Shown piece after piece: positions 5,414 to 39,361 of a stretch of 64,000 nt of DNA (its first letter is position 1; every line of letters starts with the position of its first letter). Location: contig NC_022124.1 in NCBI RefSeq assembly GCF_000163055.2, positions 496,001 through 560,000 on the forward strand. Direction: 5' to 3'. Position numbers and translations under genes: made by a program. Under the pieces are notes generated by a model. The model was given only the letters and a program-made list of their open reading frames with translations. It searched no databases and was not told the DNA's origin. Source of the DNA: Prevotella sp. oral taxon 299 str. F0039. Its GTDB lineage: Bacteria > Bacteroidota > Bacteroidia > Bacteroidales > Bacteroidaceae.

Positions 5414-5415
5414 AT

Positions 5416-6639
5416 ATGAAGAAACAATATATCATTTTCAGCCTATTCCTCTTTCTTCCCATCTTAGTATCGGCACAAAGCCGACAGATGACGTTGCAAG
5501 AGGTGTTGGCAATGGCTGCCGAGCGTAGCCTAACATTGCAGAACTCACGTATGGAGGTGGATAAGACCCGTATCCTTCAAGGTACTGCTTTTCATCTGGA
5601 TGCCACATCCGTGTCGCTCTCTCAGGACCCCACCAGTGGCGGAAGTCCCGACAATGCCATCACGGTGAGTCAGTCGTTTGCTTTACCCAGTGTTTATTCT
5701 GCCAGACGCTCATTGCTCAAGTCCGAAACCAGCGCTGCCCAAAGTCGATTGGCGGTGAGCGAGAATGAGCTGCGACGAGAGGTGAGCTTGGCTTTCTACG
5801 ACTTGCTCTACGCACAGGACGTGTTACACATTTATGCCCGTCAAGACAGTATCTATAAAAATTTCAACCGTGTGGCAGAGGCTAAACTCGGAGCTGGAGA
5901 GACTGGACGATTAGAGCAGATAAATGCAATCCGACTGAAACAGGAGAACGATATCAAAAATGACATTGCGCAGCGCGACTTTCTCACTGCCCAATTACAG
6001 TTGATGAAGTGGCTCAACAGCGATACGCTGGTAATACCTCTTGCCACAGCGACTAATGAACTCATATTTGCCGACCATTCCATTGCAGACGTTCCCCTCC
6101 TCGCCTTAGCGAAGAGTCAAGAAGAAGTTGCCAACCGACAACTGAAATTGGAGAAACGCAACGGACTGCCCACATTCTCTGTAGGAGCCAGCGTGCAGAC
6201 CGTCATCAAGGGATTCAATCCCTACAACATTGACCGCAGCGCGTATGGTGGTGGCAACTTCATGGGCTTCTCCGTGGGAGTGAACATCCCCTTAGCATTC
6301 GGTGCACAAAAGGCGCGGGTGAAGGCGACTCGCAAGGAAGTGGAGATGGCACAACTCAACGTGCGCAATCAGGAGTACGTGCTCCGCAAAAGCTACGATG
6401 CAGCCTATAACAACTATGTGTCGGCATACAAAGCCTACAACTATTATCAAAAAATAGGAGTGCCCCAAGCTCGCGAGATGGAACGAATCTCTAAAGTGAG
6501 TTATGAATATGGACAGATAGGTTATGTGGAGTTAATGCAAAACCTACAGAGTGCATTGGAGGTTTGGAAAGACTTTGCTGATGCTACTCGCCAATATTAT
6601 AAAGCTATTGTTGAACTGAATTATCTTCAAGGAAAATGA
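5416..6639 (+). CDS. TolC-family outer-membrane channel of the metal efflux system
   Basis: This encodes 407 residues, beginning with a signal peptide (MKKQYIIFSLFLFLPILVSA). The rest is the two-repeat, coiled-coil-rich arrangement of outer-membrane efflux proteins: long heptad-like helices around residues 95-180 and 290-400, with GG(N)FMGFSVGVNIPL marking the second beta segment. It is CzcC/CusC-like by context. It starts 2 bases after the pump gene and overlaps the adaptor gene by 4 bases. It provides the exit duct for metals delivered by the RND pump. Confidence 0.9.
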   Translation: MKKQYIIFSLFLFLPILVSAQSRQMTLQEVLAMAAERSLTLQNSRMEVDKTRILQGTAFHLDATSVSLSQDPTSGGSPDNAITVSQSFALPSVYSARRSLLKSETSAAQSRLAVSENELRREVSLAFYDLLYAQDVLHIYARQDSIYKNFNRVAEAKLGAGETGRLEQINAIRLKQENDIKNDIAQRDFLTAQLQLMKWLNSDTLVIPLATATNELIFADHSIADVPLLALAKSQEEVANRQLKLEKRNGLPTFSVGASVQTVIKGFNPYNIDRSAYGGGNFMGFSVGVNIPLAFGAQKARVKATRKEVEMAQLNVRNQEYVLRKSYDAAYNNYVSAYKAYNYYQKIGVPQAREMERISKVSYEYGQIGYVELMQNLQSALEVWKDFADATRQYYKAIVELNYLQGK

Positions 6640-7535
6640 GAAAAATAGGATTTTATCTACTGATACTGCTTGCCATGGTTATGGTGATAAGCTGTGGTAA
6701 CGATAAGAAAAGTGACAAGGAAGAGAATGCTGCTTCCGAGAAAGTGGAAACAGAAGAAGGTGAAGAGGAGGCTGATGCTGATCCAGCACCCGACTTAAGT
6801 AAAACTGTTAATGTTGTGCGTGTGACTGGAACATTGGCACTTGATCCACAAAACAAAGCAGAGGTTTCTCCCATTGCAAGTGGGGTGGTGCGGCGCATTA
6901 CAACTAGGGAAGGTATTAGAGTGCGCCGCGGTCAAGTGGTGGCTTATATAGAAAATACACAAATAGTCGAACTGCAACGCCAGTATCTCACGGCTGTAAA
7001 TGAGCTTTCTGCAGCCAAAACAGAACTTGCCCGACAGCAGGCGCTGATGAAACAAGATGCAGGTGTGCTGAAAACTTTGCAACAGGCTGAGTCGACCTAT
7101 GCTATTGCTAATGCGCAAGTAGTAGGTATTGGACGTCAGTTGAGTCAGCTCGGCGTGAATCCGCCTTCAATATCAGCAGGCAAGCTCACCACTCTCATTC
7201 CTGTCACATCTCCCATCAGTGGTATTGTTGGGAAGATAAAAATCAGTATGGGCAGCTTCGTGGACATCTCCACTTCGCTCATGACGGTGGTCAACAACGT
7301 AAACCTGCATTGCGACCTGAAAATGTTTGAGAAAGATTTGCCCAAGGTGCGCATCGGTCAGATGGTGAAGCTGACGCTCACCAATGCCCCCGAGGTGACC
7401 TTCTGCGCCAAGATCTACGACATAAACTCCGTCTTCGACAACGATTCCAAGTCGGTCACGGTGCATGCCCGTATCATTGACCACCCCGCTACCAAGCTAT
7501 TGCCCGATATGTTTATCAATGGTGTGATAGAATGA
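6636..7535 (+). CDS. Periplasmic adaptor of the metal efflux system, short at the C-terminus
   Basis: This 299-residue lipoprotein (lipobox ending VISC, Cys20) is followed by an acidic Glu/Asp-rich linker, a barrel-sandwich/lipoyl half-motif (SGVVRRITTREG with VRRGQVVAYIE), a coiled-coil hairpin around residues 105-165 and a beta-barrel region. It stops right after LLPDMFINGVIE. In related adaptors this point is followed by roughly 80-100 more residues forming the membrane-proximal domain. The missing part would contact the RND pump, so function may be impaired. The stop overlaps the start of a short odd reading frame, as expected if a deletion fused two genes here, but natural shortness cannot be excluded. 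Confidence 0.85.
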   Translation: MRKIGFYLLILLAMVMVISCGNDKKSDKEENAASEKVETEEGEEEADADPAPDLSKTVNVVRVTGTLALDPQNKAEVSPIASGVVRRITTREGIRVRRGQVVAYIENTQIVELQRQYLTAVNELSAAKTELARQQALMKQDAGVLKTLQQAESTYAIANAQVVGIGRQLSQLGVNPPSISAGKLTTLIPVTSPISGIVGKIKISMGSFVDISTSLMTVVNNVNLHCDLKMFEKDLPKVRIGQMVKLTLTNAPEVTFCAKIYDINSVFDNDSKSVTVHARIIDHPATKLLPDMFINGVIE

Positions 7536-7717
7536 AACAGGTTATTATGATGTTTCTTCTCATGGTCAGTACTCTCTTGTCAGTAGAGGCACAGATTATG
7601 AGCATATATTGGCTCTATCCTAAGATTTTTACAGAGAAACGCAATCGCAAAGATGTATTCGTAGCCCCTTTATACGATGAGAAGAACATTGGTGCGACTG
7701 CGCAAATTATCTTTTAA
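7532..7717 (+). CDS. Short exported peptide, possible deletion remnant of an outer-membrane protein
   Basis: This encodes 61 residues. The first 21 form a convincing signal peptide (MKQVIMMFLLMVSTLLSVEA, then Q). The last stretch, NIGATAQIIF, ends in Phe with alternating hydrophobics, the signature of the final beta-strand of outer-membrane barrels. A protein with a signal peptide fused almost directly to a terminal barrel strand cannot be a working barrel. It may therefore be what remains after an internal deletion of a receptor or porin gene. It overlaps the adaptor stop by 4 bases. It could instead be a genuine small protein; I cannot tell. Confidence 0.4.
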   Translation: MKQVIMMFLLMVSTLLSVEAQIMSIYWLYPKIFTEKRNRKDVFVAPLYDEKNIGATAQIIF

Positions 7718-7762
7718 ATCAGATGTAGGGAATCTTTGCAAAAAAGTAGAAGTTGTGAAATT

Positions 7763-9634
7763 ATGGAAAAGGAAAATAGAAACAAACTTATAAGGATAAT
7801 CTCTGCTAGTGTACTCTTAGCAGGATCGGTATTGGTAGAACGGACAATGAACCTGCTGATATGGCAACTATTGCTTGTCTATCTTGTGCCTTACTTGGTT
7901 GTGGGCTACGACGTGCTAACGGAAGCTGCCGAGGACATTGCACATGGCAAGGGCATGGACGAAGACTTCCTCATGGCTATAGCTACATTAGGTGCCCTTT
8001 GCATCGGTTTTATGCCGGGGGCAGAACCACAGTTCACTGAAGCGGTGTTTGTGATGCTCTTCTTTCAAGTGGGCGAACTCTTTGAAAGTTTTGCCGAGGG
8101 TAGAAGTCGTAAGAGTATCTCTCAGCTGATGGACATCCGTCCCGACATCGCCCATGTAAAGCGTGGTGAAGAGCTGGTGGACGTGAATCCTGAAGAGGTG
8201 AAGGTGGGCGACATCGTTGTAATTCGACCAGGAGAGAAAGTACCGATGGACGGTATCGTTATCGATGGTGCATCAAGTCTGAATACAGTTGCATTGACAG
8301 GCGAGAGCGTACCGCGTACCATTCGTCCTGCCGATGAAATCATGTCAGGATGTATAAATCTCAATGGTGTGGTGACAGCAAAAGTAACCAAGGCATTTGG
8401 CGAGAGCACGGCGGCAAAGGTGCTCAACCTCGTGGAAAATGCCACAGAAAATAAGTCGAAGAACGAAAACTTCATCACCAAGTTTGCCAAAATATACACG
8501 CCCATAGTAGTTGTACTTGCCTTGTTGGTGGCAGTTATACCACCGTTGCTCGTCAATGAGCAGTTGTGGAGCGTGTGGATCTATCGCGCTCTCACATTCC
8601 TTGTAGTGTCATGCCCTTGTGCTCTCGTTATCTCCGTGCCTCTCACTTTCTTTGGAGGCATCGGTGGAGCATCGCGAAAGGGTGTGCTCATTAAGGGCTC
8701 TAACTATATGGAGACATTGGCAAAGGTGCGCACGATTGCCTTTGACAAGACTGGCACCATGACACACGGTGTGTTTGACGTTACTGCTATTCATCCCGAA
8801 AATATTGCCCCCAATGAATTATTGCACTTAGCTGCTCATGCGGAACGATATTCCACGCACCCCATTGCCCTCAGCATTCGCAAGGCTTTTCCTGACAAAA
8901 ACGACGGCTGCGATGTAAAGGACATAGTGGAGACGGCTGGACAGGGCGTGATGGCTCGTATAAATGGCAAGTCGGTAAGTGTGGGTAATACGAATTTGAT
9001 GAAGAGCGTGGGCGCAAAGTGGCAACCCTGTGAAAAAGTGGGTACCATTCTCCACATTGCCATCGATGGAGAATATGCAGGTCATATTGTAGTGTCAGAC
9101 AAAATTAAGGAGGATGCCGCTGATGCGGTAAATGCTCTCAAGGCAGAAGGTGTGAAGAGATTGGTGATGCTCACGGGCGACAAGGAAGAAGTGGCTGTCG
9201 ATGTGGCTAAGACCGTTGGACTTGCGGAATATCATGCTGAACTCTTGCCAGGCGACAAAGTGAGTCAAGTGGAAACAATTCTCAAAGAGAATGCAGAAGG
9301 GACAATGGCCTTCGTTGGCGACGGCATCAACGATGCTCCCGTGTTAGCACGTGCCGATGTGGGCATTGCGATGGGCGGACTGGGCAGTGATGCCGCCATC
9401 GAAGCAGCCGACGTGATGTTGATGGACGACAAGCCGTCGAAGATAGCCGTAGCTATCCGCCAGGCTCGACGCACACTGCGCATCGCAAGGGAGAACACTT
9501 GGTTTGCCGTTGGTATCAAAATAGCAGTGCTCATCCTCGCTTTCTTCGGACTGGCTACCATGTGGATGGCAGTATTCGCTGATGTTGGTGTAACGGTGCT
9601 TGCTGTGCTGAATGCAGCTAGGACTCTGAAATAA
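7763..9634 (+). CDS. Zn/Cd/Pb-type P-type ATPase (ZntA/CadA family)
   Basis: This encodes 623 residues from ATG at 7763; an upstream TTG at 7736 is in frame but less likely. Motifs in order: TGES (actuator domain, about 179-182), CPC in the sixth helix (284-286), DKTGT phosphorylation site (Asp328), then GDGINDAP. Near the C-terminus, ADVGVTVLAVLNAARTLK keeps the Asp (about 607) that is diagnostic of the Zn2+/Cd2+/Pb2+ subgroup PIB-2. There is no N-terminal heavy-metal-associated domain; the protein starts almost at its first helices. It exports metal from cytoplasm to periplasm, complementing the RND system just upstream. Its stop is followed by a strong terminator. Confidence 0.93.
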   Translation: MEKENRNKLIRIISASVLLAGSVLVERTMNLLIWQLLLVYLVPYLVVGYDVLTEAAEDIAHGKGMDEDFLMAIATLGALCIGFMPGAEPQFTEAVFVMLFFQVGELFESFAEGRSRKSISQLMDIRPDIAHVKRGEELVDVNPEEVKVGDIVVIRPGEKVPMDGIVIDGASSLNTVALTGESVPRTIRPADEIMSGCINLNGVVTAKVTKAFGESTAAKVLNLVENATENKSKNENFITKFAKIYTPIVVVLALLVAVIPPLLVNEQLWSVWIYRALTFLVVSCPCALVISVPLTFFGGIGGASRKGVLIKGSNYMETLAKVRTIAFDKTGTMTHGVFDVTAIHPENIAPNELLHLAAHAERYSTHPIALSIRKAFPDKNDGCDVKDIVETAGQGVMARINGKSVSVGNTNLMKSVGAKWQPCEKVGTILHIAIDGEYAGHIVVSDKIKEDAADAVNALKAEGVKRLVMLTGDKEEVAVDVAKTVGLAEYHAELLPGDKVSQVETILKENAEGTMAFVGDGINDAPVLARADVGIAMGGLGSDAAIEAADVMLMDDKPSKIAVAIRQARRTLRIARENTWFAVGIKIAVLILAFFGLATMWMAVFADVGVTVLAVLNAARTLK

Positions 9635-9667
9635 CAATCTGGCCACAAATGCCAACTAACTAAAGAG

Positions 9668-9724
9668 CCATAATGATAGCATGTAATTCCCCAAATTTCC
9701 ATCGTCTATCATTATGGTTTTTTG
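9668..9724 (+). terminator. Intrinsic terminator of the metal-efflux cluster
   Basis: A perfect 12-bp stem (CCATAATGATAG at 9668-9679 with CTATCATTATGG at 9706-9717) is followed directly by seven T residues. It closes the P-type ATPase transcript. Confidence 0.85.
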
Positions 9725-9890
9725 TGCAAGTCATCGAAAAGGTGAAGGAAATAAAAAGAAGTTTGCCCATAATATGTAGCAACTATGTGCTAAAGTGCCA
9801 AGTGTCCAAAGTGCAAGCCTAAAAACATAAAGTTTTCATTTTTTTACTTTGACCAAGTATTACAATTAATGCAAATCATCACTATTAAAA

Positions 9891-10113
9891 CTTGTTGGTT
9901 GAATTAAATTAAAGCATACTTAATTTGCCCGATAGGCCGATAATTGATAAAACTTGTATATTGCATAAAAGTCATGGCACCTATCTTGCATACCGTTCTT
10001 GTAAAGAGTCCGCGAGTTTGCTTGGCATAATTGCGTATCATCATCAGTGTGTCGTCCAATTGTGCGAATACGGTCTCGATACGCTTTCGGAACAAATTAA
10101 TTCAACCAACGAG
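9891..10113 (-). mobile_element. 223-bp miniature element derived from an IS982-family insertion sequence
   Basis: The ends are inverted repeats matching at 18 of 20 positions: CTTGTTGGTTGAATTAAATT at 9891-9910, and the complement of 10094-10113. Between them, on the minus strand, only the last 60 or so codons of a transposase survive, and they begin immediately next to the right-hand repeat. This is the structure of an internally deleted IS (MITE) that could be moved by a full-length relative. No clear target-site duplication is visible; both flanks contain TTAAA. It lies just downstream of the excisionase-like gene at 10130. Confidence 0.75.
9904..10095 (-). pseudogene. IS982-family transposase, C-terminal fragment
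   Basis: About 60 codons remain: RKRIETVFAQLDD, then RNYAKQTRGLFTRTVCKI and a hydrophobic end with MQYTSFINYRP. The RKRIE..F.QL and RNYAKS-like blocks are characteristic of the end of IS982-family DDE transposases, including the catalytic Glu helix region. The first two thirds of the gene are missing. It cannot encode an active enzyme. It sits wholly inside the miniature element bounded by matching inverted repeats. Confidence 0.75.
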
Positions 10114-10129
10114 TTGTTAAAGACGGTTT

Positions 10130-10426
10130 TTATTCGTATTTCTTAAAATTCTTCTCCAGTAGCCTTTCCAAGTCCAAAACCTTATAGAGTATCTTCCCTG
10201 CAAACTGCGTGTAGGGAATAATCTTTCTGTCTCGATAGTCTTGCAAGGTGCGAGGGCTTATATACAGCCGCTCGCACACCTCCTTGCCCGTTAGGAAATG
10301 CTCACCGCCAAATAGAGGCTTGTGCGTTTGTGCCACTTCCTTAATTCTCCTGTTCACACAGTGGATAGCGGACAGCACTACCTGCATATCGTCCGTGTCC
10401 ATGTTCAAATCTCTAATTGTTTCCAT
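10130..10426 (-). CDS. Excisionase-like helix-turn-helix protein
   Basis: This encodes 98 residues. The central part has the MerR-like winged-helix layout of HTH_17 excisionase proteins: FLTGKEVCERLYISPRTLQD, then YRDRKIIPYTQFAGKILYK, with a terminal helix DLERLLEKNFKKYE. The N-terminal 40 residues are helical. It is paired with a second protein of the same fold 15 bases upstream on the same strand. Such pairs are usual in Bacteroides mobilizable and conjugative transposons, where they help excision or regulate mobilization. Its partner integrase would be the fragment at the left edge of the window (inference). Confidence 0.8.
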   Translation of the reverse strand: METIRDLNMDTDDMQVVLSAIHCVNRRIKEVAQTHKPLFGGEHFLTGKEVCERLYISPRTLQDYRDRKIIPYTQFAGKILYKVLDLERLLEKNFKKYE

Positions 10427-10441
10427 CTTTTCATTGTTTGT

Positions 10442-10729
10442 CTATTTGTTGCTCTTGGTTTTCTCTGATTTTGTCTGTAACAACCGCTCCACATCTTCAC
10501 GCTTATAATAGCACTTGTGTCCGATTTGTGCAAACGGCAGCATGCCCGTATCTCGGTAATGCTGTAAGGTGCGCTTGCTGATGCCCAGTAGCCTACACAC
10601 ATCACCATTGTGCAGCCAATCTGTGTGCTTACTCGATTCTCCAAATACCTTATGGCAGGTCTGGGCAAGAGCGAGGATTTCGTCCCTAAGCATCGCCCAT
10701 TGTTTGTCGGTAATGATAAAATATCCCAT
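10442..10729 (-). CDS. Second excisionase-like helix-turn-helix protein
   Basis: This encodes 95 residues. It shows the same fold as its neighbour: LHNGDVCRLLGISKRTLQHY as the helix-turn-helix, RDTGMLPFAQIGHKCYYK as the wing, and DVERLLQTKS as the last helix. The start at 10729 (MGYFIITDKQW) is the only good ATG. Gene order places it first in a two-gene minus-strand operon that diverges from the VapE-like gene at 11160. The shared 430-bp upstream region is a natural place for control of both transcripts. Confidence 0.8.
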   Translation of the reverse strand: MGYFIITDKQWAMLRDEILALAQTCHKVFGESSKHTDWLHNGDVCRLLGISKRTLQHYRDTGMLPFAQIGHKCYYKREDVERLLQTKSEKTKSNK

Positions 10730-11159
10730 AGTGTTATATTGTTTTGTTTATATTTTCCTTTTGCGATTTGCTTTTCATCGCATGTTTCTGCGTGCAAAAG
10801 TATGCGCTTATTTCCAATCTGCAAAGCAGTGGGGAACAGCAGGGAAGAATAGGGAAACCGAAGGAAATGCGGTTATCTTTCTTACTATTCTGTAGTTCCC
10901 TATCTTCCTTTTTCTAGGTTTGTTTTAGTCAAAGCAATACAGTGCAGATTGGAGTAAATAAGTACATACTTTTCTTGTAGTATTTCTATACTTGCTCCCT
11001 TATATTAGCCTGAAATCCTTATTTTCCAGCTTCTTTCTGTCAGAAATCCGTGAGAAATTCATTGCCAATGAGTGCAACATTATGCAAGCATGCTCAGATT
11101 GCTTGGAACATTGATATTCTCACCGTAACTTCACTCTTGGAAACCAAAACGGGTAAACA
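10730..11159. other. Divergent control region between excisionase-like and VapE-like genes
   Basis: No gene is supported. Open frames here on the plus strand are shadows of the excisionase-like genes. The region is AT-rich with scattered TATA-like words but no clear TAnnTTTG box with a partner. It must contain promoters for both flanking, outward-facing transcripts. Confidence 0.4.
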
Positions 11160-12443
11160 ATGAAAAATGAAGCAGATAAAAGCAGAATGAAAACAACAGG
11201 CAATTCTACCGAACGCAGGGGAAACACCTCCAAGAACAGCGAAATAGAAACCTATCTCCGTGCGCACTATGTGTTCAGGTATAATACCGTGCTGGACAGA
11301 ACGGAATACCGTAGCAATAAAGATGTAGACTGTCGTTTTACAAAGGTTGGTCGCTATGAAATCAATTCTCTCCGTAGGGAGCTTGATTTAGATATGGGCA
11401 TCATTACCTCCTCCGACAATCTCTATTCCATCATCGAAAGCAGCTTTTCTCCACGCATCAATCCCATACAGGAATACTTCAAGGCTTTGCCAGAGGTTGA
11501 TGCTTCAGAAGTGCTGCACAAGATAGAGGTAAACCAAAGCACAATAGCCAACCTTGCATCGTGCGTTATCGTCCGCAACTCTGAAAAGTGGCTGCCATAC
11601 CTTACCAAATGGCTGGTTGCAGTGGTTACCAACGCTATGGACGACCGTGAATGCCGCAACCATACCTGTCTTGTACTAACAGGGGAACAAGGAAAGTTCA
11701 AGACTACCTTTCTTGATTTGCTTTGTCCGCCCGCGCTTAAAGGTTACAGCTACACAGGAAAAATATATCCGCAGGAGAAGGACACACTTACTTATATCGG
11801 TCAGAACCTCATCGTAAACATAGACGACCAGCTCAAAGCCCTCAACAAGCGTGATGAGAATGAACTCAAGAACCTTATTACCTGTCCTATGGTTAAATAC
11901 CGTATGCCTTACGACAAGTATGTGGAGGAACACTCTCACTTGGCGAGTTTTGTAGCATCGGTAAACGGCAATGACTTTTTGACCGACCCGACAGGAAGCA
12001 GGCGTTTCCTGCCCTTTGAGGTACTTGCCATTGACATAGAACGAGCAAAGGAAATTTCTATGGATGCCGTCTATACCGAAGCGAAGGCCCTTTTAAAATC
12101 AGGCTTCCGCTATTGGTTCAATGATGACGAGATAGCGGAGCTATACAGGGAGAGTGAGGACTTCCAAGTGCAGACCGCTGAAATGGAACTACTATTACGC
12201 TGTTTTGAAAAGCCAACAGAGGACAATCCTCATTGTGCTTACATGACCACTACCGAAATACTCGCTTATTTAGGTGTTTATACGCATCAACCTTTGACAT
12301 TCAAACGTATGGGCGAAGCACTCAAAAGAGCTGGCTTTGAAAAGGTAAGCAAGAGGCGTGAGGGTTGTAGTCCTGTCTATGTGTATAAGATTAGGAAAAT
12401 CCACCCCTGCCCACTGGTAAATAGCTGTGGTAGTTTGATGTAG
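11160..12443 (+). CDS. VapE/VirE-family ATPase of the mobilizable element
   Basis: This encodes 427 residues. The Walker A motif GEQGKFKTT is near residues 175-183 and a Walker B-like LIVNIDD near 217-223, followed by the conserved DPTGSRRF arginine-finger-type motif. This is the virulence-associated E (PF05272) organisation, related to superfamily 3 helicases. These proteins accompany primases in phage satellites and Bacteroides mobilizable transposons and are thought to support element replication. The C-terminal region (TTTEILAYLGVYTHQP, GEALKRAGFEKVSKRR) looks like a winged helix. The primase at 12662 follows after about 210 bases. Confidence 0.85.
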   Translation: MKNEADKSRMKTTGNSTERRGNTSKNSEIETYLRAHYVFRYNTVLDRTEYRSNKDVDCRFTKVGRYEINSLRRELDLDMGIITSSDNLYSIIESSFSPRINPIQEYFKALPEVDASEVLHKIEVNQSTIANLASCVIVRNSEKWLPYLTKWLVAVVTNAMDDRECRNHTCLVLTGEQGKFKTTFLDLLCPPALKGYSYTGKIYPQEKDTLTYIGQNLIVNIDDQLKALNKRDENELKNLITCPMVKYRMPYDKYVEEHSHLASFVASVNGNDFLTDPTGSRRFLPFEVLAIDIERAKEISMDAVYTEAKALLKSGFRYWFNDDEIAELYRESEDFQVQTAEMELLLRCFEKPTEDNPHCAYMTTTEILAYLGVYTHQPLTFKRMGEALKRAGFEKVSKRREGCSPVYVYKIRKIHPCPLVNSCGSLM

Positions 12444-12661
12444 TAGCGTGTGTAGTATTGTTGTTTACTACAACTTATACCTGAATGTCAATCACTTACA
12501 ATCAAAATATATGTAGTAAGAAAAAAGTGAAAAAAGTTTTTAGGGGAAAAACTTTATGAAACGAAAAAACATAAATGAAGTTTGCGCTATCAGCATAATC
12601 AAAATATAATCCGATATTAAAATCAGAATGAATAAATGTTCAACTAATAATTATAATGACA

Positions 12662-13654
12662 ATGAAAGAAGAAGATTTATCACGCATTAAGCGATACCCC
12701 ATAGTGGAGTATCTTGAAAGGAAAGGTATCAAACCAGTGCGCAGGACACCTGCCTATGCTCTCTACCGTTCACCATTTCGTGAAGACACGCATCCAAGTT
12801 TCAAGGTAGACACAGAGAAGAACCTCTGGATAGATTATGCCGAAGGCAAAGGCGGAAGTATTATCGACCTTTGTATGCGGTTAAAGGGCTGCACACTGTC
12901 GGAAGCCATCCGCATTTTGGGGCAGAATGCTCCCGATATAACGCACGTTCCTCGTAGAGAAAGTGTTCAAGGCTCTTCCAAGCAAGAAAGTATCAGACAA
13001 GCAGTGTCTACAAGTGGAGTAAGGAGACTGATAGAAGTATCAGACACCTTACCTCCACACTTATTAAAGTATCTTGAGGAAGACCGCTGCATCAATTTAG
13101 AAAAGGCTATGCCCTTTCTGCGTTGTATCAGCTATGAGGTAAGAGGGCAGCACTATCAAGCCATCGGCTTTGCCAATCAATCGGGAGGTTATGAGCTTCG
13201 GGATAACGGCTCTTTCAAGGGAACGATTGCTCCGAAGGATATTACCCCCGTGTTCACGGATAAGATAACGGATAGAATGAAACCGGTCTGCGTGTTCGAA
13301 GGTTTTATGGACTTTCTATCCTTCCTTTCAATGAAAAAAGAAATCATCAGCCATTGCCTTGTGATGAACTCCGTGAGTAATGTGGCAAGGAGCATTCGCT
13401 ATCTCAATGACAGGCAAGTGTCCTCCATTCGTACCTTCCTTGACAATGACGAAGCTGGACGGAGAGCTACGGAGGATTTTATGGAGGCTGGTTTCAAGGT
13501 AGATGATATGTCCGTGCATTACAGGAACTTCAAAGACCTCAACGAATATCACATCCACAGGATGCGTGAACAGCAGAAAAGCCTATCATTGACGATGTCA
13601 CAAACACAAACCAATCCCATAAAGGTAAAACAAGTTAAACATAAAATGAGATAA
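12662..13654 (+). CDS. Toprim-domain primase-like protein with degenerate CHC2 finger
   Basis: This encodes about 330 residues; ATG at 12656 is also possible and adds two residues. The N-terminus aligns with the CHC2 zinc-finger domain of DnaG (YRSPFREDTHPSF, then a GKGGSIIDL motif), but the zinc-binding Cys/His residues are absent. The Toprim domain follows, with VCVFEGFMDFLS giving the Glu near residue 213 and FLDNDEAGR giving the Asp pair near 261-263. A role in priming replacement-strand synthesis after transfer, or in element replication, is the usual inference. It is 4 bases upstream of the DUF3408 gene, so the two are coupled. Confidence 0.85.
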   Translation: MKEEDLSRIKRYPIVEYLERKGIKPVRRTPAYALYRSPFREDTHPSFKVDTEKNLWIDYAEGKGGSIIDLCMRLKGCTLSEAIRILGQNAPDITHVPRRESVQGSSKQESIRQAVSTSGVRRLIEVSDTLPPHLLKYLEEDRCINLEKAMPFLRCISYEVRGQHYQAIGFANQSGGYELRDNGSFKGTIAPKDITPVFTDKITDRMKPVCVFEGFMDFLSFLSMKKEIISHCLVMNSVSNVARSIRYLNDRQVSSIRTFLDNDEAGRRATEDFMEAGFKVDDMSVHYRNFKDLNEYHIHRMREQQKSLSLTMSQTQTNPIKVKQVKHKMR

Positions 13655-13658
13655 AGAC

Positions 13659-14156
13659 ATGGAAAAGAAGAAAACAACAGAAGAAGAGTATGACCTTTCA
13701 TATTATTTGGGTGGTAACGAAGAAGATACCAATTCAAAGCCTACCAAACAAAAAGACAAGTTTATCCCTGAACGGGAAGTGGTCAGGAAGCAGGAAAAAA
13801 GAACACCCATGAACCAGGCGGACGCTCTTTCGGAAAAGATGGAATATGAGCAACATACTGTATTATCACAAGATGCAGTGCCATCACAGCACACAGAGAA
13901 CGCAGCCGTTCAAAGACGCATCAGTGCCAAAATGAAAAAGGAGACGCTCGAAGCATATAAACAAATCTACCTTACTCCCATTAAGTTGATAAGTAGAAAG
14001 GCTGTCTATCTGAGCAAAGAGACACAGGAACGTGCCGACTTCATTGTGCGAAGATTGGGCGACAGGGGCAGCAATCTTTCAAGCTTCGTGGAGAATATCG
14101 TGCGTAGCCATTTAGATGAGTATGGGGAAGACATCGAGAAATGGAGGAAGCTGTAA
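13659..14156 (+). CDS. DUF3408 family protein of the mobilizable element
   Basis: This encodes 165 residues. The first 95 are charged and low in complexity (KKKTTEEEYD, many Gln and Glu). The rest is the conserved DUF3408 domain: LISRKAVYLSKETQERADFI, VRRLGDRGSNLSSFVENIVR and SHLDEYGEDIEKWRKL. The fold is expected to be ribbon-helix-helix-like. Proteins of this family are markers of Bacteroidetes conjugative and mobilizable elements and lie near mobilization genes; the exact job is unknown. DNA binding at or near oriT is a reasonable guess, since the oriT-like hairpin lies just downstream. Confidence 0.8.
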   Translation: MEKKKTTEEEYDLSYYLGGNEEDTNSKPTKQKDKFIPEREVVRKQEKRTPMNQADALSEKMEYEQHTVLSQDAVPSQHTENAAVQRRISAKMKKETLEAYKQIYLTPIKLISRKAVYLSKETQERADFIVRRLGDRGSNLSSFVENIVRSHLDEYGEDIEKWRKL

Positions 14157-14517
14157 GCACAAAAAAGGATTGAGGATTTTGCACAAAAAGGTCATTTCTT
14201 TTCCTTGAAACCCTCGACTCTTCCCCAAAAGAAATAAAACCATAATTATTAGTCCAATGCCTGAACGGTGGGAATACCACGAACGCAGTTAAACACGGAA
14301 TGTCGTGCATTCACTTTCGGCAGGGGAAACGTCCCAAGGCGTTATCGGCATCTCAGCTGATATTGCAAGACGTCAGTTTGTACCCACAAACTGAGCTTGC
14401 TCCCCTCGCCAAACAGTCGGGGAGATTAGACCGTAATCACTCCGTTCTCATCGGTCAGCATTCAGGAATTAAGAAGCAACGAATCATCCATAATGATTAA
14501 CTTTCAAAGAAACTTAT
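14157..14517 (+). other. Non-coding region containing a probable origin of transfer
   Basis: No gene is supported across these 361 bases. Two structures stand out. A perfect 9-bp hairpin (TCAGTTTGT at 14373-14381, loop ACCC, ACAAACTGA at 14386-14394) is followed immediately by CTCCCC (14400-14405) pairing with GGGGAG (14419-14424). Hairpins directly upstream of a MobA-like/relaxase gene pair are the usual place for oriT. The nick site cannot be located by eye. Confidence 0.55.
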
Positions 14518-14949
14518 ATGAAGAAATACAAGGAAAGAGCTGCTCGATGGCAGCAGCAGGATAATGAAGAAAAGCAGATGAACAAGACGGAGTTCATCAA
14601 GGTTAGGTGTACTTTGGAGGAGAAGCAGCGTATCAAGGCAAAGGCAGAAAGCACAGGTCGGAAGTTCTCCGAGTACTGCCGTGAGATGCTAATGGGAGGT
14701 GAAGTGATTGCCGTTCCCAAGATGACCAACAATGAAAAGGAAGCCATTGCCGTACTCCACCGAACGGGAATGTACTACGCACAGGTTTCCAACCTCATCA
14801 GGATAAAGGACGAGTCATGGGTGCCGATAACCAAGAACCTTTCGATATGTGCCAAAGAAGCATTTAAGCGTTTTTTCGACCCTCACTTCCGCATTGGTGA
14901 CGATATATATAAGGTCTTAAATCTGCCGAGGTATGATAGGAAAGTGTAA
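14518..14949 (+). CDS. MobA-like mobilization accessory protein (ribbon-helix-helix)
   Basis: This encodes 143 residues. After a basic N-terminus, the segment TEFIKVRCTLEEKQRIKAKA followed by ESTGRKFSEYCREMLMGG has the beta-strand plus two-helix layout of plasmid mobilization relaxosome proteins (MobC/BmgA-like). Such proteins bind oriT and help the relaxase nick. It overlaps the relaxase gene by 17 bases, which fits translational coupling and a stoichiometric complex. ATG at 14578 would give a shorter protein starting MNKTEF and is possible. Confidence 0.82.
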   Translation: MKKYKERAARWQQQDNEEKQMNKTEFIKVRCTLEEKQRIKAKAESTGRKFSEYCREMLMGGEVIAVPKMTNNEKEAIAVLHRTGMYYAQVSNLIRIKDESWVPITKNLSICAKEAFKRFFDPHFRIGDDIYKVLNLPRYDRKV

Positions 14950-15997
14950 GGCGATAGCGCACGGAAGTACTGCATTGGACTATATCTTCAGAGAGGGCAA
15001 GCTAGGTAATCGGCTTGCCTTCCATAACTTTTGTAGCAGAGAATCAAAGGCTATTTACGAGGAAATGAAATTGGTCAGCGATTACAATACCAGATGCAGA
15101 AATAAATTCTTGCGCATCGAAATCGGCATTGCACCACAGGACGAGAAGAAACTATCAGTTTCTGAACTTGCCCAAATAGCCCATCTGTTTGCCAAGAAAA
15201 TGGGACTTGACAACCATCAGTGGGTGGCAGTAACACATAAGGATACAGACAACAGGCATATCCACATTATCGCCAACCGCATCAGCCTATACGGAGAAGT
15301 TTATGATACCACCTTTGTAAGCAACAAGGCTGCAAGAATAACAGAGGAAATCAGCAGAGAGAAAGGCTTAACCATTGCAAAGGAAGTCAAAATCAAAAGG
15401 AAACATCAGAAAGCAAAAGCCAATCCCACAAGAGAGGAAACAAAGAGAGAACTACAAAGAATATGCTATGCCCTACTTGAAAAGTACAAAAGTACAGGTA
15501 TCACAGGACATTCTATGTTCCTCTATGAGTTGAACAAGCATGGAGTAACCATAGATCGTATGAAGAACAAGCAGAGCAAGGTCTATGGCTTGAAGTTCTT
15601 ATACGGAGAATATGCGTTCAAGGCATCGGAAGTCGGTAGGGAGTTTGGCTACCGTTCTTTGCAAAAGAACTTCGAGGCAGGTAAGAAAGCCGATACGAAT
15701 ATATCTGACCAAGTAATACGCAAATCGTCAAAGCATACAGATACTAAAGATGCTGGCTATCAACTCGTACCCCCAAGCCGTTCATACAGTCCACCACCAA
15801 CTAAAGAAACGCCAAAAATCGCACAAACTATAAGAGATATGACAGATGCAGCCATCAGCACAGCCGATGATTTGGTGGAGATAGTAGGCGGAATGATTAC
15901 ACCAACCACACATGGCGAGGACTACGCAGAAACCGCATGGCAGCGCAAACTCAGAAACCAAGCTAACAGAAAGAAGATGCGAGGGAGAGGATTATAG
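14933..15997 (+). CDS. MOBP-type relaxase
   Basis: This encodes 354 residues. The N-terminal 120 residues form the relaxase/mobilization nuclease domain: a candidate nucleophile Tyr17 in ALDYIFREGK, and the metal-binding three-His motif (His102, His109, His111) in HKDTDNRHIHIIANRI. The C-terminal part is basic and helical (KIKRKHQKAKANPTREETKR). The enzyme nicks oriT, stays covalently bound to the 5' end and is led into the recipient. The element has no visible type IV secretion genes, so it would be mobilized by another conjugative element rather than self-transfer (inference from this window only). Confidence 0.9.
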   Translation: MIGKCKAIAHGSTALDYIFREGKLGNRLAFHNFCSRESKAIYEEMKLVSDYNTRCRNKFLRIEIGIAPQDEKKLSVSELAQIAHLFAKKMGLDNHQWVAVTHKDTDNRHIHIIANRISLYGEVYDTTFVSNKAARITEEISREKGLTIAKEVKIKRKHQKAKANPTREETKRELQRICYALLEKYKSTGITGHSMFLYELNKHGVTIDRMKNKQSKVYGLKFLYGEYAFKASEVGREFGYRSLQKNFEAGKKADTNISDQVIRKSSKHTDTKDAGYQLVPPSRSYSPPPTKETPKIAQTIRDMTDAAISTADDLVEIVGGMITPTTHGEDYAETAWQRKLRNQANRKKMRGRGL

Positions 15998-34526: not shown

Positions 34527-35810
34527 GGTAGTGTACTAAAAAGTGTGTAAGTCCATATTTTTCTTATCTTTGTATAGCTAAAAAAATAATAATAAAAAAT
34601 AGAACTTACACATTCACAAATTCCGGAAATTATTTCTGATTACACAAGCAGTAGTGAAGGTTTTGTTACTCTTCAGTCTTTAATTATGAATTCTTTAATG
34701 AATCATGAACGTAAATTATTCGTTAAAGAACATGAAGGTGAGCAATGTAATGACTTTCGTTCTCGTCGTTGGTATAGTCATAGATTTGAGTTTTCTCTTC
34801 GTATTCCTCGTAGTCGCAGTGGAAATTTCTATCCTGTTCTTTTAGGCTTAATCCGTAGTGAAAGTGAAGAACGTGCAAAGTTGTTCAATCTTCTTTGCAC
34901 CAAAGGTCTTACTACTGAACAAATAGGTGAAATATCTGATGCAATTTATGGACGCACTTATAGTAAACAACAAGTCTCTTATTTGAGTACCAATTGCCGT
35001 AAAGATGTTGAACAATGGCTCAATCGCAGACTTTCTTCTCATTATTTAGCCATTTATATTGATGCTACTTTCATTACTATTCGCAGAGACAAACAAGTAT
35101 CCAAAGAGGCTTATTATACCCTTTTAGGGGTTTTAGAAGATGGAAGTAGAGAGGTGTTAAGTGTTGTAAATCACCCTACTGAAGGGGCGATATGCTGGAA
35201 AGAAGAGCTTGAAGAGTTGAAAGAACGAGGAGTAACTCAAATAGATTTAGTGGTATCGGATGCACTTCAAGGAATAGAGAACGCTGTCTGTGCAGCTTTT
35301 CCTCAAACTTCACATCAGTTTTGCGTTGCTCATGTGAAGCTACAAATACTAAATTGTGCCTTTTATAAAGACAAATCATAGATGGAAGAAGAACTCAAAG
35401 AGCTATTTACTTTGAAAAACAAAGAGATGAAATCTTTGTTAGGATATCAACAATTTATTACTTTTGTAGTCAGATGGGAAAAGAAATATCCTGTATTAAA
35501 GAAGTATAAAGCAGAAAGAAACATAGCTTACTTTACTTATATGGACTTTCCTATACAAGTACAAAGGTGCATATATACGACAACTGGATTGAAAGACTCA
35601 ATAGAAAATATAAGAGAACAATAAAAATGAGGACGTCAATGCCAACAAGTAAGTCAGTGCTTTTCCTACTTGCAAGTGTTGCAATGCAAGAAACAAAAAC
35701 AACATATGTAAGAAAAATTCATCAATGGAAATCCTGGAAAAACAACAAAGAAATATAAATAATAAACGAAGAAAAGAAATTTAAGATTACACACTTTCTA
35801 GGACAGTACC
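34527..35810 (+). mobile_element. IS256-family insertion sequence, decayed
   Basis: This is about 1284 bp. The left end reads GGTAGTGTACTAAAAAGTG, then TGTAA; the right end, complemented, reads TGTCCTAGAAAGTGTGTAA, so the ends match at 17 of 19 positions. An internal -7-like TATCTTTG precedes the transposase. No target-site duplication is evident: the right flank abuts foreign coding DNA, consistent with later rearrangement. A second copy of its left 225 bp lies at 37793 in the same orientation. Confidence 0.85.
34599..35758 (+). pseudogene. IS256-family (mutator-type) transposase pseudogene
   Basis: The DDE catalytic context is recognisable (YIDATFITIRR, then VVSDALQGIENAV, then FPQTSHQFCVAHVK), typical of mutator-type transposases. 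Three lesions are visible. The start codon at 34599 is ATA, whereas the partial copy at 37865 has ATG in the same context. An in-frame TAG interrupts the gene at 35379-35381 (KDKS, stop, MEEELK). A one-base deletion near 35578-35585 shifts the frame, so the end (NWIERLNRKYKRTIK expected) continues in another frame to 35758. It is very unlikely to make active transposase. Confidence 0.85.
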
Positions 35811-35930
35811 CCCTACCTTCGCTTCAAACTCGGTGAGTTTATCAGTTTCGGTGAGAGGCGGACGAATATCTACGGCAAGATGAAGCCACGCGAGGTTATC
35901 TCGATGGAAAGTGCTTTGGAATTGTTATAA
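35811..35930 (+). pseudogene. 3' end of an unidentified gene cut off by the IS element
   Basis: An open frame runs from the IS edge to TAA at 35928-35930, reading LRFKLGEFISFGERRTNIYG, then KMKPREVISMESALELL. The codons are GC-rich, unlike the AT-rich genes on both sides but like the mobile element at the start of the window. It has no start of its own. I do not recognise the family. It implies that the segment to the right was brought in from elsewhere, with the IS as its left boundary. Confidence 0.45.
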
Positions 35931-35947: not shown

Positions 35948-37624
35948 ATGAATAATTATAGCCAAATTTTTCAACAAGAGATAAAATGTGCGTATTTATA
36001 TTACAATTCATTGGGAATGAATGTAATGAAAATTTTTAGGAGTGAGGTTGGAGAATATTCGTTTAACCCATCGTCCATTAATTATCAAAAGCAGCAAACA
36101 GCAGCCTCTTTGATAAATAGTCAAATGGACTATTGTAGTGGAATTGCACTTATAACAGGTTGGAATAAATATCATGCAATTACTGTGCATGATATTCATG
36201 ACCTTGACTCTTCATATTTTTCGTGGCGTAATGAATTAAAGGACATTAATGGGTACATTGTTCAGTTTCTCAAAGAACTTAGGCTTCCTGTTGATTATCC
36301 TTGGGTAATCATAAATAAAAATGGGACAGGCTTTTCTATAATTTTCACATCGGAAGCAATATTAACTGATATTCACAACATGATATTCACACCAAGGGTC
36401 GTAGATGTTGTTGATGGCGAAAAAATTAAACATTTCCAAAAACTTGAATTGGAATGGGATGGTCATATTCTCATGCCTCCAACGGAGATTAATGATGAAA
36501 TGTATTATTTTAGGGATAACATCTATCCCGAATCATCACCTCTAAATGTGAATTTATCATATATAGACTTGTTGATTACAGATTTTATTGATAACTACTC
36601 ATTCAATCAATATAAAAATGGTACACGAGTTTATAAATTGTATGAGAAGAGCACTAAGTTTTTTACATACAAGGATTATTGTAATCATAACTTCTATGAT
36701 AATCTTGAATGGATAAAACAATGTAATACAAGAGACTCTCTTGATGCTTTAGGTGTAGCATATGCCTTAGGTAGAGGAGTTGAAGTAGACAAAGCTAAAG
36801 CAGTAAAATATTTTAAGTCTGCAGACTACTCCGTCTCTTATTTTAACCTTGCCAGTTTGATAGCTGGTGGAGTAATTGAGGGTACTCTTCAAGATGTAAG
36901 GTATTACCTTGACAAAATCAGAGATGATATAGATTTTGTTGAAACATGGACAGAAGATGAGGATGGCAATAGTTTTCCTGAAAGTAGCCATTGTGAACTG
37001 ATTTATGACAATGCTGAAAAATATTGCTTTCGGGAGCAACTATATCTATTTTTCGACACGGAAACCACAGGCATCCCGAATGACTATAATGCTCCAAGCG
37101 AGGACACAAACAATTGGCCAAGATTAGTTCAAATAGCATGGTTGATTACTCGTGAAAATGGAGACATATATAAAGAGCTTCAATCAAGAATAATTTCTCC
37201 AGAAGGTTTTAGGATACCGCAGTCCTCAATTAACATACACGGAATAACTCAGGAAAAAGCAGTAGAAGATGGCGAAGATTTATGTGATGTTCTAAATGAT
37301 TTTGTAAATGACGTTGACTATAATGATGTCATTTTAGTTGGGCATAACATCTATTTCGACATTCATGTCGTTACAGCTGAGCTAATAAGAAATGACATGA
37401 TAGATGAGAAAGAAACCTTGGAGAAGATAAATAAAATCTGTACGATGAAGAAGTCTACTGATTTTTGTAAGATTTCGGGCTTGTACGGCTACAAATATCC
37501 AAAACTTCAACAATTGTATTATAAACTTTTTGGAGAAAACTTTGATAATGCACATGATGCTGGCTCTGATATAGAGGCTACCAGAAAATGTTTCTTTGAA
37601 TTAAAGCGAAGAGGTATTCTATAA
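35948..37624 (+). CDS. PrimPol-like / Sel1-like / DEDDh exonuclease fusion protein
   Basis: This encodes 558 residues with no signal peptide. The C-terminal third (about 365-556) is a complete DnaQ-like 3'-5' exonuclease: Asp370 and Glu372 (FFDTETTG), Asp471 (GHNIYFD), His536 and Asp541 (HDAGSD), the DEDDh set. The middle (about 264-310) resembles a Sel1-like helical repeat (LGVAYALGRGVEVDKAKAVK). The first 200 residues follow the outline of a Prim-Pol (PF09250-like) domain: GIALITG, an acidic HDIHD, GTGFSIIF and LELEWDGHILMPPTE. The Prim-Pol call is by pattern only, and its catalytic acids are uncertain. The gene is AT-rich and lies between IS256 sequences, followed by its own terminator. 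A role in genome defence or element replication is possible but unproven. Confidence 0.75.
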   Translation: MNNYSQIFQQEIKCAYLYYNSLGMNVMKIFRSEVGEYSFNPSSINYQKQQTAASLINSQMDYCSGIALITGWNKYHAITVHDIHDLDSSYFSWRNELKDINGYIVQFLKELRLPVDYPWVIINKNGTGFSIIFTSEAILTDIHNMIFTPRVVDVVDGEKIKHFQKLELEWDGHILMPPTEINDEMYYFRDNIYPESSPLNVNLSYIDLLITDFIDNYSFNQYKNGTRVYKLYEKSTKFFTYKDYCNHNFYDNLEWIKQCNTRDSLDALGVAYALGRGVEVDKAKAVKYFKSADYSVSYFNLASLIAGGVIEGTLQDVRYYLDKIRDDIDFVETWTEDEDGNSFPESSHCELIYDNAEKYCFREQLYLFFDTETTGIPNDYNAPSEDTNNWPRLVQIAWLITRENGDIYKELQSRIISPEGFRIPQSSINIHGITQEKAVEDGEDLCDVLNDFVNDVDYNDVILVGHNIYFDIHVVTAELIRNDMIDEKETLEKINKICTMKKSTDFCKISGLYGYKYPKLQQLYYKLFGENFDNAHDAGSDIEATRKCFFELKRRGIL

Positions 37625-37647
37625 ACAATAATCTCATAATACTTACA

Positions 37648-37698
37648 AGCAAGTCTTGGATCCGCCATTAGGCGACACCAAGACTTGCTTTCTTTTTT
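37648..37698 (+). terminator. Terminator of the exonuclease-fusion gene
   Basis: A perfect 12-bp stem, AGCAAGTCTTGG (37648-37659) with CCAAGACTTGCT (37678-37689), has a smaller CGCC/GGCG stem in its loop and is followed by TTCTTTTTT. A separate 8-bp hairpin, GGCGGACA/TGTCCGCC, follows at 37719-37737. Confidence 0.8.
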
Positions 37699-37792
37699 AT
37701 AGGTAGTCGCTTTGCTTTGGCGGACACTTTGTCCGCCCACTGGTAGGCTACCGCCCATTGTTGATATGCCCAAGGGAGGAGAGAGTGAGATA

Positions 37793-38017
37793 GGTAGTGT
37801 ACTAAAAAAGTGTGTAAGTCCATATTTTTCTTATCTTTGTATAAGCAAAAAAAATAATAAAAAAATGGAACTTACACATTCACAAATTTCGGAAATTATT
37901 TCTGATTACACAAGCAGTAGTGAAGGTTTTGTTACTCTTCAGTCTTTAATTATGAATTCTTTAATGAATCATGAACGTAAATTATTCGTTAAAGAACATG
38001 AAGGTGAGCAATGTAAT
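37793..38017 (+). mobile_element. Left-end fragment of the same IS256-family element
   Basis: The 225 bases match the left end of the IS at 34527 with a few differences. It includes the terminal repeat, the TATCTTTG promoter word and the first 50 or so codons of transposase with an intact ATG at 37865. Identity stops at GCAATGTAAT; the reading frame then ends two codons later. It has the same orientation as the fuller copy, so the two form direct repeats around the exonuclease-fusion gene. Confidence 0.85.
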
Positions 38018-38435: not shown

Positions 38436-38443
38436 TACCTTTG
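38436..38443 (+). promoter_or_regulatory. -7 box of the WYL regulator gene
   Basis: TACCTTTG, 18 bases before ATG at 38462. It overlaps the only upstream alternative start (TTG at 38441), which supports the ATG at 38462. Confidence 0.5.
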
Positions 38444-38461
38444 TTTTATACAAACAAGCCT

Positions 38462-39361
38462 ATGAACAAGTACGGAAATGAACTAGAACTGATACTACTT
38501 CTAACCGATAACCATGAGCACGACACACAAGAGCTAGCCAACAGTTTAGGAGTTACGCAACGGAATATCTACTATTATTTCGAAAACTTAAAAAAGTATG
38601 GGTTTAAAATCATTAAGAATAGAACTAAATATCGCTTAGATCGAAGGAATCAATTCTTTCGAAAGCTAAACGATAGTATTGCTCTGAACGATTCCGAAGC
38701 TATGTTTCTTTATCAAATGTTGATGGGACAAGATGATAAAAATAACATGGTGCAGTCTATAAAAGTTAAGTTCGAACGATTTTATAACCTTGAGTTATCA
38801 ACCAAACCAGCACATCTAAAAAGGCGAAGACGCAACATTCAGAAGCTGAGAGAAGCGATGGAATCGCATAAAATGGTGCGTTTACGAAGTTATTCATCAC
38901 CTCATAGTAAAACAAAAACCGACCGCATTGTTGAGCCTTTCTTGTTTCTTAATAACGAAAATGAGGTGCGTTGCTTTGAATTAAAAACACATGTCAATAA
39001 AACATTCAAAGTGTCTAGAGCTCACGATGTAGAGATTTTAGATGTAGATTGGATGCACGAACACGAGCATAAGGAACTTTTTACCGATATATTTATGTTC
39101 TCGGGCGAAGAAAAACAATCTATATGTCTCGAACTTGGTCAGCTTTCACACAATCTTTTAATTGAAGAATATCCCCTTTCAGAAACCTATTTAGAGGAAA
39201 TAGGTGACGAACGTTGGTTGTTAAAGACCGAAGTGGTGAGCTTAGTGCCTGTTGTTCGCTTCGTATTAGGGCTCTTCCAAGACATTAAAATTATAGAGAA
39301 TGTAGAATTAAAGAATCTTGTTGAGGCGCAAATAGCGCAGATGCACAAGATGATTGTTTAG
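38462..39361 (+). CDS. HTH and WYL-domain transcriptional regulator
   Basis: This encodes 299 residues from ATG at 38462. The N-terminal helix-turn-helix (DTQELANSLGVTQRNIYYYF, with a wing following) binds DNA. The middle and C-terminal part is a WYL domain, with LRSYSSPHS, VEPFLFLNNENEVRCFELKT and a closing RFVLGLFQDIKIIEN segment typical of the WCX extension. WYL proteins sense ligands such as nucleic acids or nucleotides and often regulate DNA-damage or defence genes. Here it is alone on its strand, next to an IS-bracketed insertion that contains a nuclease; I see no direct evidence that they are linked. Confidence 0.88.
   Translation: MNKYGNELELILLLTDNHEHDTQELANSLGVTQRNIYYYFENLKKYGFKIIKNRTKYRLDRRNQFFRKLNDSIALNDSEAMFLYQMLMGQDDKNNMVQSIKVKFERFYNLELSTKPAHLKRRRRNIQKLREAMESHKMVRLRSYSSPHSKTKTDRIVEPFLFLNNENEVRCFELKTHVNKTFKVSRAHDVEILDVDWMHEHEHKELFTDIFMFSGEEKQSICLELGQLSHNLLIEEYPLSETYLEEIGDERWLLKTEVVSLVPVVRFVLGLFQDIKIIENVELKNLVEAQIAQMHKMIV

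Follow-up and report, generated by a model that had tools for sequence, protein, structure and literature searches.

A DEDDh exonuclease gene with a degenerate Prim-Pol front, a candidate member of a rare, modular, defense-like protein family of Bacteroidota

The window, that is, the whole stretch of DNA analyzed here, comprises 64 kb of contig 2 in the two-contig, 2.48-Mb genome of a Prevotella-group bacterium. Its plus strand carries an intact open reading frame (ORF) at positions 35948..37624, which begins with ATG and encodes a protein of 558 amino acids (aa) with, in this order, a Prim-Pol-like domain, a Sel1-like segment, and a DEDDh exonuclease domain. The same order had been proposed in an initial annotation of this DNA and was borne out by Pfam searches and by a profile built from relatives. 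The exonuclease domain (residues 368 to 548; 37049..37591, plus strand) matched Pfam RNase_T above the cut-off (E value = 3e-12), and the alignment showed all five catalytic residues (D370, E372, D471, H536, and D541) at the positions that the annotation had named. This region also matched the PADLOC model for CRISPR-associated DEDDh (E value = 1.5e-24) as well as NCBIfam and PHROGs profiles for PolC/DNA polymerase III epsilon and for the phage "DNA polymerase exonuclease subunit." Judged from its intact residues alone, the domain is predicted to be a working enzyme with 3'-5' exonuclease activity.

The middle of the protein contains a single Sel1-like repeat (residues 267 to 292; 36746..36823, plus strand), which scored below the Pfam cut-off (19.3 versus 30.7 bits, E value = 0.0017) and whose residues also match the solved Sel1 protein 6ork (E value = 4.2e-6). 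Residues ~245 to 325 are helical in a low-confidence structure model. Weak matches to Alkyl_sulf_dimr and MrsD were taken as chance. The whole architecture had no match among the catalogued anti-phage systems in PADLOC, where only the exonuclease part was recognized (models DEDDh and PDC-S48).

The gene lies between two decayed IS256-family sequences. Upstream, ORFs, profiles, and a repeat search delimit a 1,284-nt element (34527..35810, plus strand) with imperfect terminal inverted repeats of 39 nt (74% complementary) and a transposase frame split into 231-aa and 80-aa pieces. Downstream, a DNA match of 226 nt (37792..38017, plus strand) corresponds to the 5' end of the same element at 97% identity; in all, 14 sites across the genome match the element, this fragment among them. 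The two sequences are thus in the same orientation, as expected from the directly repeated IS256 copies of the initial annotation, but the downstream one is only a fragment and the upstream one is broken. For the same reasons, and because the 14 bases flanking either end of the left copy do not match each other, a composite transposon around the gene finds little support. A 39-codon open tail with its stop, recognized from the ORF reading, lies between the upstream element and the gene (35811..35930, plus strand) and may be the remnant 3' end of an upstream gene that has been lost; a search for its relatives found none. Right after the stop codon of the gene, the sequence and the repeat search show an inverted repeat followed by T-rich DNA, which resembles a terminator (37647..37690, plus strand). 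The AT-rich character pointed out earlier was confirmed, as the G+C content of the gene (0.336) is the lowest among the 31 ORFs of at least 200 aa in the window (mean of the other 30, 0.411; standard deviation, 0.040).

A WYL/HTH regulator gene follows at 38441..39361 (plus strand), with a PADLOC WYL match (E value = 4.3e-13) and a Pfam WYL score slightly under the cut-off. Its presence next to the gene had been reported correctly, but a functional link between the two was not supported. Among 23 other genomes examined from this genus, 11 have relatives of the WYL protein, at 37 to 45% identity, neither the window gene nor any of five other neighbor proteins tested was found at 16 WYL loci (~1.5 kb on each side), and none of eight loci with family members carried a relative of this WYL protein. 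We therefore rejected it as a partner and treat it as unconnected, and on these sequence comparisons the adjacency looks coincidental. At one relative, G065, another WYL-type gene was seen by eye ~4.6 kb away. Elsewhere in the window, positions 2300 to 15994 have a G+C content of 0.43 to 0.49, compared with 0.34 to 0.43 in the later ORFs compared, and encode an RND-type efflux set (an AcrB-family pump with outer membrane and HlyD-type parts), a P-type ATPase, a VapE-like protein, a Toprim protein, and a MobA/VirD2 relaxase; this segment is probably a mobilizable element with efflux cargo.

The Prim-Pol (archaeo-eukaryotic primase) domain (residues 13 to 223; 35984..36616, plus strand) was revealed via relatives only, with no Prim-Pol match to the window protein in direct searches of Pfam, NCBIfam, PADLOC, and PHROGs. 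A profile made from the PrimPol domains of seven relatives found it with 110 bits (E value = 4.6e-33), compared with 5.9 bits for the best of 200 shuffled sequences. Six of these seven relatives passed the Pfam Prim-Pol cut-off of 22.8 bits (G034, 29.4; G338, 27.7; G858, 39.9; G666, 37.1; L065, 27.7; G971, 30.6), and G065 scored slightly under it (21.3 bits). Because the AlphaFold model of the window protein, built with six sequences, was poor (pLDDT 43) and was left out of the fold searches, the fold has to be approached through a relative. The model of the L068 PrimPol domain (219 aa, pLDDT 76.9, pTM 0.79) retrieved Prim-Pols as all of its top 15 Foldseek matches in the PDB, the best being pRN1 ORF904 (1rni; E value = 3.0e-6, TM 0.56/0.58), followed by NrS-1 and CAPP (7p9j), and its matches in a viral structure library were phage primase-polymerases. 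A sequence search of the PDB with a PrimPol profile returned nothing useful. The Prim-Pol assignment of the initial annotation therefore stands through the relatives' profile and the archaeo-eukaryotic primase fold of the L068 domain, and not through a direct profile match or a usable model of the window protein itself. Judged by sequence, the N terminus descends from a Prim-Pol of the type found in mobile-element replication proteins, with its fold predicted from the relative's model.

The annotation had further suggested an active primase-polymerase with proofreading in one chain, and this did not hold for the window copy. We aligned the window domain with those of the seven relatives, taking L068 D77, D79, H122, and E154 as reference, and these four residues are unchanged in all seven relatives. 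In the window protein, codons 79 to 81 (T-V-H; 36182..36190, plus strand) stand in place of the D-x-D of motif I, so that the first Asp is T79, and codon 130 (36335..36337, plus strand) is a Ser in place of the motif II His (GxGxH type), preceded by N-K where the relatives carry S/T-G; these losses are unique to the window among the eight sequences. The acidic residue of motif III is present (E167). The second Asp of motif I depends on the register of the alignment, being H81 when ungapped and D82 when gapped. A further shift to D85-L-D87 requires a six-residue insertion inside the motif-bearing strand of the L068 model and is, on that model, unlikely to give the true motif I. The PrimPol half of the window protein is 26 to 31% identical to those of four relatives, which are 35 to 40% identical among themselves, and the ratio of PrimPol to exonuclease identity is 0.52 to 0.62 for pairs with the window and 0.64 to 1.00 for other pairs, so this half has drifted faster. 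Since the first Asp and the motif II His are lost here and kept in 7/7 relatives, the PrimPol half is very likely not a polymerase, and polymerization plus proofreading is unlikely for this protein. This applies to the window copy only, as the six relatives with an intact DEDDh domain keep both residue sets. L068, from RGIG7394, likewise retains both.

Including the window protein, we found seven proteins in Bacteroidales with a PrimPol domain followed by an intact DEDDh domain, a rare and patchy order. One of them, in the uncultured Prevotellaceae bacterium isolate RUG414 (G034; same genus as the window), has the order LRR_5-PrimPol-Sel1-DEDDh (832 aa) and matches the window protein over residues 18 to 558 (E value = 4e-108). 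The proteins of Bacteroides sp. An322 (G338) and L065 also begin with LRR_5, followed by PrimPol, a Sel1-like region, and DEDDh; those of G858 and G666 carry an FGE-sulfatase domain after PrimPol, the Sel1-like region, and DEDDh; and that of G065 is a PrimPol-DEDDh protein without the Sel1 region. Pfam recognizes Sel1 only in the window and G034 proteins, and the others, except for G065, align there without a Pfam match. Because six other proteins have the same order, a chance fusion is excluded for the window protein. The DEDDh domains of its sub-group have an NWPRLVQ-like stretch in common and occur alone or C-terminal to LRR_5, WG, or PrimPol modules.

In the distribution searches, whose genome sets overlap and each include the own or center genome, 17 of 200 genomes of the same genus had some match and three covered the N-terminal domain in part. 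Profiles built on this domain reached 2/399 genomes in the family, 3/295 in the order, and 17/395 in the phylum (mostly a PrimPol plus helicase-like type of protein), as well as 3/190 in family f79 (one a fragment), 2/92 in family f142 (one weak), and 1/61 in genus g13. A scan of GTDB contigs gave five named loci, namely, Prevotellaceae RUG414, Candidatus Rikenella faecigallinarum, Bacteroides sp. An322, and two Bacteroidales (from yak rectum and water-buffalo caecum). Among the matches listed for viral contigs, plasmids, and phages (for phages, 20 of 55), no place covers 80% of the query; these matches are to the exonuclease part, with the exception of one PrimPol match on a Hymenobacter plasmid. 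The same kind of PrimPol profile also reached longer proteins, in Bacteroidota and in three viral contigs, in which PrimPol is joined to a P-loop helicase-like part (by eye in three of these proteins).

Two proteins seem, from their sequences, to represent the reverse case, with PrimPol kept and a degenerate exonuclease. The 408-aa protein of G971 keeps the PrimPol residues, and its C terminus scores a weak 13.5 bits against the DEDDh profile of the family (best of 200 shuffles, 10.1). The 432-aa protein of the Hymenobacter plasmid matches this profile at its C terminus (19.7 bits, E value = 2.9e-5), with PrimPol motifs present and exonuclease motifs absent when inspected by eye. A second degenerate PrimPol-like domain was found at the N terminus of a 371-aa protein of locus L144 (E value = 4e-8 among 1,562 segments, against a profile to which the window sequence contributed); it lacks both the D-x-D and the His at the corresponding alignment positions. 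Pfam found nothing in this protein, and we read the rest of it as WG-like.

Comparison of the G034 locus with that of G100, which belongs to the same genus, showed that the part in front of the DEDDh domain can be exchanged. The final 1,819 nt of the G034 contig, beginning where the DEDDh domain does (codon 645), are 94% identical in DNA to G100 and comprise the DEDDh domain, a 110-aa gene, and the beginning of a DUF1016 nuclease gene whose product corresponds to PADLOC PDC-S02; around an upstream XRE-type gene, a further stretch of 353 nt shows 86% identity. Between these kept flanks, 3.0 and 3.3 kb, respectively, gave no match by blastn (E value, 0.1) or tblastx (E value, 0.001). The G034 middle consists of a gene for a 335-aa protein, HD-like in our reading (Pfam and PADLOC match nothing), and of LRR_5-PrimPol-Sel1, and the G100 middle consists of AbiH (182.9 bits, above the Pfam cut-off) and a part that we read as PEGA-like together with WG repeats. 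Over the gene, G023 and G100 do not differ (100% identity), and G023 was not counted as a separate case. A mis-join is conceivable because these are draft assemblies and the G034 contig ends in the DUF1016 gene, and a chimera of the two is disfavored because their DEDDh regions differ by 9%. A third locus, G032, has the same flanks as G034 (XRE, 86%; DUF1016, 94%) with a trypsin-like gene (above the Pfam cut-off) and LRR_5 repeats; its DEDDh is 68% identical in DNA to that of G034, and the LRR repeats are alike at the protein level.

Of 200 genomes searched in the genus, 145 contain a match to the XRE protein, many of these at only 50 to 60% identity. We read 22 XRE loci, comprising 19 from the best places (with some partial matches omitted) plus G034, G100, and G032. 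DUF1016 lies downstream of XRE in 10 of the 22, and among the other 12, seven contigs end less than 6 kb from the XRE gene; DEDDh is present in three. Besides DEDDh, four locus pairs have an entire gene in common (57% identity or higher), and most intervening genes are unshared. Ten proteins from these loci were compared with PADLOC; the models matched include AbiH, SngA, SngB, TmtA, a reverse-transcriptase-system protease, and PDC-S02, and four of the ten had no match or one weak model. Collectively, these loci look like a defense hotspot with a common regulator. Between its XRE gene and DUF1016, L138 (1002-4989) encodes a WG-repeat protein, a protein whose N terminus we read as protease-like joined to many Sel1 repeats (Pfam reports only Sel1/TPR-type repeats and weak matches, and no protease-like domain), and a protein that we read as caspase-like (no Pfam match). 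A short acidic C-terminal tail is common to the otherwise dissimilar proteins at L138 1002-2051 and L139 2143-5526 (75% identity over 36 residues), and the 371-aa protein of L144 has a similar one by eye, as if this were another constant C terminus used in XRE loci. The proteins at L140 2356-4407 and L154 4509-6575 are 58% identical, follow the same kind of XRE regulator, and are both preceded by related genes; that of L140 matches PADLOC TmtA and Pfam NOV_C.

Relatives also occur in other settings. In G971, the gene lies just behind that for a type I restriction HsdR protein, and IetS, IetA, and GmrSD are encoded no more than 10 kb away; the Hymenobacter plasmid gene has a TmtA-like AAA protein on one side and a DinG-type helicase on the other; and a stand-alone DEDDh on a Fibrella plasmid adjoins CBASS and AbiE genes. 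The mobile or defense setting suggested by the initial annotation thus fits some relatives, and decayed IS256 copies flank the window gene, but the neighbors of G858, G666, and G065 look ordinary by eye, and none of seven cassette markers (XRE, two DUF1016 types, the 110-aa gene, HD-like, AbiH, and trypsin-like) was found in the 64-kb window at an E value of 0.01. The PrimPol-DEDDh-FGE-sulfatase proteins of the G858/G666 type (L037 9331-11781 and L038 7520-10006) are found at one chromosomal position in two species that both belong to genus g108. This shared position, together with the PrimPol motif residues kept by all six relatives with an intact DEDDh, is what a role in genome maintenance would lead one to expect, in which a primase-polymerase has its own proofreading or end-trimming nuclease for the restart of stalled forks or end repair and the window protein is a diverged copy that keeps only the nuclease side. 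We consider this unlikely given such patchy occurrence (own genome included, 3/200 in the genus by N-terminal coverage, 2/399 in the family, and 3/295 in the order), the addition and swapping of modules, and the loss of PrimPol residues in the window.

Rather improbable, too, is that the gene is a leftover of a decaying mobile element, a fragment of a PrimPol replication protein joined to a nuclease and drifting between dead insertion sequences. The broken and partial IS256 copies on both sides, the lowest G+C content among the ORFs compared, the lost PrimPol motifs, and the lack of partner genes in the window are consistent with this idea; against it, 558 codons have stayed open with all five exonuclease residues kept, and the domain order is common to six other proteins, one of which matches the window protein at an E value of 4e-108.

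We favor, at a probability of about 0.5, the reading that the window gene encodes a nucleic-acid-directed 3'-5' exonuclease with a non-catalytic PrimPol front and belongs to a rare, modular, defense-like family of Bacteroidota, of which it is, as we read it, a lone, diverged member between decayed IS256 copies. Pointing to this are the intact DEDDh, the Prim-Pol homology and the fold of the L068 domain, the motif loss and the second degenerate PrimPol-like domain in L144, the swapped middles, the AbiH and trypsin-like companions, and the neighbors of the G971 and Hymenobacter genes, from which we infer the defense role of these modular exonucleases; the lack of cassette markers in the window, the ordinary-looking neighborhoods of g108 and G065, the recognition of only the exonuclease part by PADLOC, the poor model of the window protein, the ambiguous register of motif I, and the weak G971 DEDDh argue against it. 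As its active site is lost, the Prim-Pol of the window copy would most likely be a binding module, possibly one that recognizes an invader's primer-template ends, single-stranded DNA, or nucleotides; the Sel1-like helices may be a linker that presents the exonuclease, and the C-terminal DEDDh would be the effector nuclease. The swapped fronts and companion gene fit a sensor-effector design under changing selection, where the swap itself is observed and its purpose is presumed. A bolder version, which is tentative and on balance doubtful, is a polymorphic immune family in which a constant DEDDh cassette is recombined behind LRR_5, PEGA-WG, or PrimPol modules along with an exchanged companion (HD-like, AbiH, or trypsin-like), the loss of its active site having turned a mobile-element replication enzyme into a sensor of foreign replication intermediates. 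If true, a nuclease would have recruited a replication enzyme of mobile elements for recognition, without a catalytic role, and nature would offer a series of proteins (both halves intact, exonuclease degenerate beside a kept PrimPol, and PrimPol degenerate beside a kept exonuclease) for telling which half does the job. The locus type with a constant exonuclease and a swapped front would also be a handle on further uncatalogued defense genes in Prevotella-group bacteria.

In titles and abstract openings of the open-licence literature, we found neither a PrimPol-Sel1-DEDDh protein nor an XRE-variable-DEDDh-DUF1016 locus, which is weak evidence of absence. According to passages of PMC8211822, CAPPs, which occur in Bacteroidetes, likewise have a Prim-Pol with a TPR part (in MpCAPP, TPR at 1 to 100 and AEP at 100 to 360), and DnaQ is able to trim prespacers. 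The window protein differs from CAPPs in its degenerate Prim-Pol, its fused exonuclease, and the absence of CRISPR genes seen nearby, and a CRISPR adaptation enzyme with prespacer trimming by DEDDh, as in a CAPP joined to a DnaQ-type nuclease, is highly improbable despite these parallels, the PADLOC CRISPR-associated DEDDh match (E value = 1.5e-24), and the CAPP Prim-Pol (7p9j) among the fold matches of the L068 domain, as no cas-like gene was seen by eye among the ORFs around the window gene or its relatives. Polyvalent proteins with Primpol domains offer another likeness. According to passages of PMC5512222, these conflict-related proteins combine PrimPol with further modules, and Primpol is confined to the polyvalent proteins that conjugative elements encode; that text does not contain the term "DEDD."

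The Prim-Pols of PF09250, pRN1 ORF904, and phage NrS-1 are homologous to the domain of the family and have the fold of the L068 domain, whereas in the window copy the D-x-D is without its first Asp and motif II without its His, there is no helicase domain, and an exonuclease is joined on. Outside the family, the nearest PrimPol domains are those of mobile-element-type proteins of Bacteroidota (frames of ~660 to 830 aa; L042 to L059 and L105 to L107), which in place of Sel1-DEDDh have a P-loop helicase-like part, as read by eye from L046, L054, and L055. The exonuclease half shares all catalytic residues and its profile matches with DnaQ/PolC-type DEDDh enzymes (PF00929; PADLOC DEDDh PDLC01247) but belongs to the sub-group that is marked by the NWPRLVQ-like stretch.
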